NCBI GenBank assembly: GCA_016183765.1
Contig: JACPEA010000013.1
Span: 124,001-188,000 of the forward strand
DNA length: 64,000 bases
DNA from: Bacteroidota bacterium
Lineage (GTDB): Bacteria; Bacteroidota; Bacteroidia; Chitinophagales; Chitinophagaceae
Reading direction: 5' to 3'
Position 1 is the first letter of the stretch; each line of letters starts with the position of its first letter. The notes below the pieces were generated by a model that ran no database searches, was not told the DNA's origin, and saw nothing but the letters and a program-made list of their open reading frames with translations. A program made the translations under genes and the position numbers. Shown here one piece after another: positions 32,633 through 33,194 of this stretch.

Positions 32633-33154
32633 ATGGGTAAAGTATTACAAACCTATCCAGCCCGGATAGTTCAACGAATCTTTTTTATCAGGATGCATAA
32701 AGTCATATTTGATTTTGATCTTGCAGAAATGTATGGTGTTGAAACCCGTGTATTAAAGCAGGCTGTACGGAGAAATATTGATCGGTTCCCTAAGGATTTT
32801 ATGTTTCAGCTAACTAAAAAAGAATTCAATGAGGTTATCACAAATTGTGATAACCTCATACAGCTGAAATATGCTCCTGCACTGCCAATGGTGTTTACAG
32901 AACAAGGAGTTTCTATGCTTTCCTCAGTATTAAAAAGTAAGCAGGCGATCAAGGTCAATATTGCCATCATGAGGGCATTTGTTCAGATGCGGCAATTATT
33001 GGAAGGAAATAAAGACATAGCAAAAAAGATCATAGAGCTCGAAAAGAAATATGATGGGCAGTTCAAAACAATATTTACCGCTATTAGATCTTTACTGCAC
33101 GAAAAACAACGGCCAAGAGAACGGATCGGCTTTATAAAAGACAGAATAAATTAA
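32633..33154 (+). CDS. ORF6N-domain DNA-binding protein
   Basis: The 173-residue protein has an N-terminal ORF6N (KilA-N-related) domain: VIFDFDLAEMYGVETRVLKQAVRRN, cited DLAEMYGVETRVLKQAVRRN, then FPKDFMFQLTKKEF and the signature VFTEQGVSMLSSVL. A short helical C-terminus follows (IIELEKKYDGQFKTIFTAI). ORF6N proteins occur in phages and as orphan chromosomal genes, often suspected antirepressors or regulators, and move horizontally. The codons for EVITNCDNLI form a 31-nt perfect palindrome (32829-32859) whose 25-nt core recurs just past the stop. Base composition is more AT-rich than its neighbours, hinting at transfer. Confidence 0.85.
   Translation: MGKVLQTYPARIVQRIFFIRMHKVIFDFDLAEMYGVETRVLKQAVRRNIDRFPKDFMFQLTKKEFNEVITNCDNLIQLKYAPALPMVFTEQGVSMLSSVLKSKQAIKVNIAIMRAFVQMRQLLEGNKDIAKKIIELEKKYDGQFKTIFTAIRSLLHEKQRPRERIGFIKDRIN
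32829..32859. repeat. 31-nt perfect palindrome inside the ORF6N gene
   Basis: Arms of 15 bp (ATGAGGTTATCACAA and TTGTGATAACCTCAT) flank one central A. The 25-nt core at 32832-32856 is the exact reverse complement of 33162-33186 just downstream of the gene. Confidence 0.9.
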
Positions 33155-33194
33155 TTGAAAAAGGTTATCACAATTTGTGATAACCTTTTTCAAT
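33154..33194. terminator. 41-nt perfect palindrome at the ORF6N stop, probable bidirectional terminator
   Basis: Arms of 20 bp (33154-33173 and 33175-33194) surround one central T. It begins on the last base of the ORF6N stop codon. Around the core GGTTATCACAA/TTGTGATAACC stand A5 on the left and T5 on the right, so either strand gives a stem plus T-run. It lies between the convergent ORF6N and PorP/SprF genes. Confidence 0.8.

Follow-up and report, generated by a model that had tools for sequence, protein, structure and literature searches.

The stretch of DNA analysed here, referred to as the window, is 64,000 nt long and comes from a member of the Bacteroidota. It raises the question of why a gene for an ORF6N-domain protein should carry one long palindrome twice, once within its coding sequence and once at its stop codon (Table 1). 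Both palindromes are perfect, as the first-pass annotation had reported: the in-gene copy of 31 nt has arms of 15 bp around a centre of 1 nt, and the copy of 41 nt has arms of 20 bp and begins on the last base of the stop codon. The 25-nt cores of the two are, as also noted there, exact reverse complements of each other, and the in-gene copy is translated into EVITNCDNLI, which contains the VITNCDN stretch described before. With up to 3 mismatches allowed, the 25-nt core is found at two places only in the 3.67-Mb genome, both at the window gene; a shorter 19-mer at the same tolerance adds two three-mismatch sites, and a reversed control pattern yields the same number. In RNA folding both palindromes form strong hairpins, with z values of −6.8 (in-gene) and −8.4 (outer). 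The encoded protein scores 100.5 bits with the Pfam ORF6N profile, PF10543, against a curated cut-off of 27.8.

Table 1. Coordinates of the ORF6N gene of the window, its predicted recognition helix and the associated palindromes.
Feature	Position	Strand	Remarks
ORF6N-domain gene, 173 aa	32633–33154	+	Open frame; PF10543 E 6.6e-29 over residues 15–99; PHROG anti-repressor families
Codons of predicted recognition helix (residues 38–47)	32744–32773	+	Helix in both AlphaFold2 models; covariation with palindrome
Codon of residue 39 (R)	32747–32749	+	Residue covaries with palindrome
Codon of residue 43 (Q)	32759–32761	+	Residue covaries with palindrome
In-gene palindrome, proposed operator of the encoded protein	32829–32859	.	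Exact; conserved in homologues; encodes residues 66–76
Conserved unit of in-gene palindrome, ~27 bp	32831–32857		Dyad at 32844
Second palindrome, same core, over stop codon	33154–33194	.	Dyad at 33174; operator-like site and terminator-like hairpin; convergent genes

ORF6N homologues were collected from relatives, a phylum sample, named genomes of many phyla, viral contigs and plasmids of other phyla, and palindromes were scored with +1 for each paired and −2 for each unpaired position. Rows without an FTExG-like anchor (11 in one homologue listing), with less than 130 nt before the anchor, or identical over 180 nt were left out. A palindrome of about 27 bp with a score of at least 8 is found at the same place in 253 of 276 ORF6N genes from many phyla (relatives and phylum sample 129/143, named genomes 82/85, viral contigs 37/41, plasmids of other phyla 5/7), i.e., inside the regulator's own gene, as in the window. 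Control windows of equal size elsewhere in the same frames reach this score in 16 of 814 cases. When synonymous codons are redrawn from each gene's own usage, about 4 genes are expected at a score of at least 8, and 0.78 genes at a score of at least 10, against 203 of 276 seen. Chance or codon usage as the origin of the palindrome is ruled out by the control windows and the synonymous redraw.

The 261 of 276 genes with a score of at least 7 were used for a closer description of the half-sites. The arms are paired in 85–99% of these genes at positions 2–12 and in 80% at position 13; pairing then drops to 52–53% at positions 14–15 and to 16–33% beyond, and the unit is therefore about 27 bp long. 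Three half-site bases are nearly fixed, A at position 2 (260 genes), C at 3 (251) and T at 6 (244), and positions 4, 5 and 7–13 differ between genes and are mostly paired within each gene. Thus the sequence of the palindrome and the peptide that it encodes vary across the family, and the symmetry is kept. The other 15 genes (score below 7), most of which have an open frame, lack the in-gene palindrome. Genes without the palindrome retain the loop. Frames shorter than 140 aa number four in the set, of which three keep the palindrome, too few for a test of its loss in broken genes. In one gene (L050 of genome G073, contig C63) an in-frame TAG lies in one arm with a matching change in the other, and the palindrome is perfect. 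Six further genes (L078, L086, L107, L113, L134 and L142) each carry two tandem palindrome-like units, with repeated peptides such as LRSQIATS.

Each half-site position was compared with the variable protein columns of the 261 genes. Position 4 shares 0.996 nats of information with residue 43, 0.87 with residue 73, which is itself encoded by the palindrome, and 0.74 with residue 40. For position 7 the largest share is with residue 74, also self-encoded, and the next largest with residue 39. Residues 39, 40 and 43 lie within the predicted recognition helix, and 79 and 67 nt separate codons 39 and 43 from the palindrome. The identity of residue 43 gives the base at position 4 from the dyad (Q with A, E with G, R or K with C, L with T) in 255 of 257 genes: there are 135 cases of Q with A, 68 of E with G (and 2 exceptions with A), 36 of R with C, 13 of K with C and 3 of L with T, and 3 genes are unpaired at this position. 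Base 5 is C with Q or E, G with R in 27 genes (10 unpaired, 1 with C), and T with K (13) and with L (3). Base 7 is G in 143 of 145 genes with K39; R39 gives a weak rule only, with 50 A, 34 unpaired and 7 G. The window palindrome has A at base 4 and A at base 7, fitting Q43 and R39. Textbook preferences in protein-DNA recognition join Gln to Ade, Arg and Lys to Gua, and Glu to Cyt. The code for residues 43 and 39 agrees with these preferences, provided that the base-4 contacts of E, R and K are with the opposite strand.

The two partners also change together. On a tree of 257 genes built without the helix and loop columns, residue 43 changes 81 times and base 4 changes 77 times, with 67.2 changes on the same branch where 12.2 are expected, an enrichment that ranks first among 113 columns. 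Residue 39 and base 7 have 29 same-branch changes against 7.5 expected, and residue 38 ranks first for base 7, above residue 39. With the rules held fixed, 51 new genes (63 matches less 6 without the anchor and 6 duplicates) were scored, 48 of which have the palindrome. The rules hold for base 4 in 45/45, for base 5 in 48/48 and for base 7 in 38/42 scorable cases, in genes that are not fully independent because they come from the same genome lists.

The pattern RGGTCRCAANTTGYGACCY was found at 35 sites in 28 of 395 genomes, all of them at ORF6N genes, at fragments of these, or at one remnant. The 28 loci examined hold 33 of the sites, and 27 of these loci have an ORF6N profile match at the site or within about 50 nt, in some cases to a broken or partial gene; at L150 an apparent ORF6N remnant was recognised by eye in the translation. 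The remaining two are located within ORF6N matches or 82 nt ahead of them. In the window's genome, two other ORF6N genes are the only places with exact sites of the pattern ARGTCRCAANTTGYGACYT; a third has one site with two mismatches upstream of it and one with three mismatches inside it, and the remaining three-mismatch sites number 5, against 16 for a reversed control. This genome has five ORF6N genes with five different half-sites and helix types. Mapped against ORF6N genes in this way, as the first-pass annotation had advised, the palindrome is nearly confined to ORF6N loci. An Elusimicrobia MAG, UBA9634 (L258), has several ORF6N genes in a cluster, and their half-sites differ.

Sites are also present in the non-coding flanks of 309 genes, 49 upstream against 2.3 expected and 17 downstream against 1.1 expected. 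Those upstream mostly lie at most 160 nt from the start of the domain (the distance is to the domain and not to the start codon), as operators could. Flank sites with a paired base 4 agree with the residue 43 of their own gene in 42 of 61 cases (26.0 expected, p 0.0002); agreement at base 7, in 39 of 60 against 32.9 expected, is not significant (p 0.07). The 24 of 66 flank sites whose base 4 does not match their own protein may serve other ORF6N proteins. Upstream of one ORF6N gene (L340 of genome G229, contig C160), four palindromes are spaced exactly 34 bp apart, and their half-sites are of four specificity types, TCGCAA, TTCCAA, TCACAA and TGACAA/TTGGCA. Two to four tandem palindromes of mixed type are found beside other ORF6N genes: just 3′ of the stop codon at L152, L161 and L162, and just before the domain at L168 and L169.

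Several explanations in which the protein does not read the palindrome have to be considered. In one, the covariation arises within the protein, where residue 43 of the helix would touch residue 73 of the loop, the palindrome being a by-product. Residue 73 is encoded by the right arm and covaries with base 4, hence with residue 43, as such a contact would predict. However, bases 4 and 7 of the left arm are synonymous third positions in 266 of the 309 genes, those in the main codon phase, and they follow the helix nonetheless. The left-arm Ser codon is TCA with Q43 in 133/133 genes and TCG with E43 in 64/66 (197 of 199 Q or E cases), and the left-arm Arg or Lys codons end in G with K39 in 134/135 and in A with R39 in 41/48. 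Elsewhere in these genes, the use of those codons is not split by residue 43 or 39. Because the split is at synonymous positions, contact inside the protein cannot be its cause and is ruled out by them, unless the pattern has some other origin; the non-coding flank sites follow residue 43 as well, and practically no weight is left for this explanation. A hairpin in the mRNA, serving as a regulatory switch or a translation control element, would fit the great stability of the window hairpins and the conservation of pairing through changes on both arms. A helix in sense-strand RNA is expected to favour G-U over A-C. Among 3302 arm pairs, 3183 are Watson-Crick, 21 are G-U, 42 are A-C and 56 are other, so that there is no excess of G-U pairs of the kind that a structured RNA switch would tolerate. 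Since the symmetry is kept and G-U mismatches are not favoured, the constraint is therefore on the DNA. The mRNA self-pairing switch suggested earlier is ruled out by these mismatch types, and the covariation of the palindrome with residues of a DNA-recognition type and the presence of sites outside the gene also make an RNA role most improbable.

A functionless mobile repeat of the REP type, or a sequence kept perfect by template-switch repair, would be compatible with the tandem palindromes inside some genes, the arrays beside others and the many perfect arms. A REP-like element would be expected in many dispersed copies, but the sites are not dispersed: the core occurs in two copies at the window gene only, and the 35 sites in the 395 genomes are all at ORF6N loci. 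In addition, the place in the gene is fixed, genes that lack the palindrome keep the loop, and neither process predicts a residue-to-base code. No pre-insertion clean alleles, and no palindromes scattered in unrelated genes, were seen in the loci examined. A mobile or dispersed palindrome is ruled out by this distribution, and the chance that a repeat or a repair process accounts for the data is very small. The residue-to-base code, the same-branch changes, the new genes and the synonymous positions argue together that the ORF6N protein very probably binds its own gene. The residue-to-base covariation thus lends strong support, at the level of sequence, to the earlier suggestion that the palindrome is a site bound by the protein that the gene encodes.

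The outer palindrome of the window also fits Q43 at base 4 and lies between convergent reading frames. Judged by its sequence, it is a further operator-like site, which also folds into a terminator-like hairpin. It had been described as a bidirectional terminator; the hairpin does form on both strands, but in the scan only the minus strand is listed as terminator-like. Similar downstream palindromes are found in the relatives L005, L006 and L052, and none in the stretch scanned at L004. Another gene (L018 of genome G145, contig C63) has a decayed in-gene palindrome, and a palindrome just 3′ of its stop codon fits the protein's E43 at base 4. It had also been proposed that the terminator was copied from its own gene. 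Derivation of the outer copy from the gene's own palindrome is possible, but this leaves the in-gene palindrome unexplained. The first-pass annotation would have dismissed the pair as coincidence if most homologues had no downstream palindrome. Downstream copies are indeed uncommon (the 17 sites at 309 genes) and the in-gene palindrome is near-universal, yet dismissal on this ground would reject a real signal.

Both AlphaFold2 models predict helices at residues 27–34 and 38–47 and strands at residues 57–59 and 86–89. The segment encoded by the palindrome falls between these two strands, which is the place of the wing in winged-helix proteins; in both models it is predicted as helices at modest confidence and not as a beta wing. 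Weak fold matches were obtained to MerR, among them DNA-bound MerR proteins, to RacA and to Dachshund-type domains, with a best Z of 5.7. A Foldseek search of the model against the PDB gave no match at E ≤ 0.001. In a sequence profile search of the PDB, most matches joined the C-terminal helix region to coiled coils or designed helices, and no relative of the domain was recognised. No NCBIfam family matches the window protein. It does match the PADLOC defence candidate PDC-S05 (E 8e-57).

The reading that we favour, with a probability of roughly 0.8, is that the in-gene palindrome is the operator of the encoded ORF6N protein, read by a homodimer and most likely autorepressing. The homodimer would read two half-sites of about 13 bp, with the consensus 5′-(T/C)TTGAGGTCRCAA, by means of its recognition helices, with base pairs 4–5, counted from the dyad, read by residue 43 and base pair 7 by residue 39. 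The contact zones from base 4 to base 7 would then be about 11 bp apart, which would fit two recognition helices on one face of the DNA. The operator would encode part of the same DNA-binding domain, at the place of the wing, and because it overlaps the domain-coding segment, one stretch of DNA would be both address and protein code. The computed results are the conservation as DNA, the residue-to-base code, its success in new genes and the near confinement of sites to ORF6N loci; physical binding, the geometry of the dimer, contacts by the wing and repression are what we infer from them. The bound protein would most likely act as a block to RNA polymerase about 200 bp into its own gene and so repress it, and by analogy with LacI at O3 negative autoregulation through an elongation block is the likeliest use. 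An operator within the coding sequence would preserve feedback after the gene moves to a new promoter, and copies upstream or at the gene end, as in the window, would add operators.

The protein could also bind its own gene for another end, with the site as a mark of gene copies: a resident ORF6N protein would silence or otherwise handle incoming or paralogous copies of matching specificity, in the manner of phage immunity groups. The nearest annotated families are those of phage anti-repressors, the family is found among the defence candidates of PADLOC, and both the four-type array upstream of L340 and the five different half-sites in the window's genome would fit such a mark. However, equal half-sites are not significantly avoided among co-resident genes, with 2 of 86 pairs identical at positions 2–9 against 4.4 expected (p 0.18) in a hand-picked and hand-mapped set of 43 multi-gene genomes, and a mark would not have to sit in the coding sequence. 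This use of the site is less likely than autorepression.

The autoregulatory operator has partial likenesses elsewhere. No description of a self-encoded site in ORF6N or KilA-N was found in the open-licence literature, which is no proof of absence, and in the wider literature on intragenic operators the only analogues found were the following. LacI at operator O3 is described, in the account cited, as a repressor within reach of its own transcript that blocks elongation and leaves a truncated mRNA (PMC3711431). Autoregulation from a site within reach of the regulator's own transcript would be shared, but the account concerns one site and one gene, whereas the ORF6N site is inside the segment coding for the DNA-binding domain and is conserved over many phyla (PMC3711431). 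In the LacI family, recognition-helix residues predict operator bases, from covariation with local autoregulatory sites (PMC2978694). They do so across the ORF6N family too; the sites of the LacI-family work, as it is described there, were sought in intergenic regions, whereas that of ORF6N is in the regulator's own coding sequence (PMC2978694). RGG motifs encoded by RNA G-quadruplexes are a case, as presented in the source, of a binding segment encoded by the element that it may bind, with autoregulation proposed (PMC11789052). Here too, as in ORF6N, a nucleic-acid element encodes the segment that may bind it, but the element is human RNA and a repeat motif from codon composition, in contrast to the exact palindrome of ORF6N, which is double-stranded DNA and is read by a base-by-base code (PMC11789052). 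The small C-protein of Kpn2I is reported in the cited work to control its own gene as an elongation roadblock, as is proposed for ORF6N (PMC6237814).

Three other families of phage-type regulators share in-gene palindromes with ORF6N, the family of the encoded protein. A scan of about 900 nt without a negative control was repeated over 600 nt with TetR as the control, and palindromes with a score of at least 10 were found in the gene at 19/30 Bro-N, 9/19 KilA-N, 19/30 RhuM and 0/30 TetR loci. Those of Bro-N, KilA-N and RhuM (among L373–L451) are mostly at one place per family. For covariation the genes are too few in KilA-N (13) and Bro-N (12 and 10); in RhuM (20 genes) the columns T42, S44 and E45, placed in the helix-turn-helix, are among the top for some positions, which is suggestive only.

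The ORF6N family, widespread and without described sites in the literature searched, thereby gains a probable DNA target and a recognition code that can be read. Its coding sequence is under two coupled constraints across many phyla, those of the protein and of its own operator. With a cognate site in each gene, specificity would be predictable from sequence alone. The co-evolution of protein and DNA can thus be tested directly, and the family offers many regulator-operator pairs of different specificities. A wider view is put forward tentatively, as less likely than the operator itself: genes of at least four virus-type families (ORF6N, Bro-N, KilA-N and RhuM) may be self-addressed, such that the DNA coding for the domain is the target of the domain, private co-evolving addresses act as immunity groups, and the operator dictates part of the amino acid sequence. 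If so, a resident protein would recognise and silence any incoming gene with the same address, and multi-specific arrays would let one gene be heard by several others. If Bro-N, KilA-N and RhuM behave alike, this would be a general design of mobile regulators.
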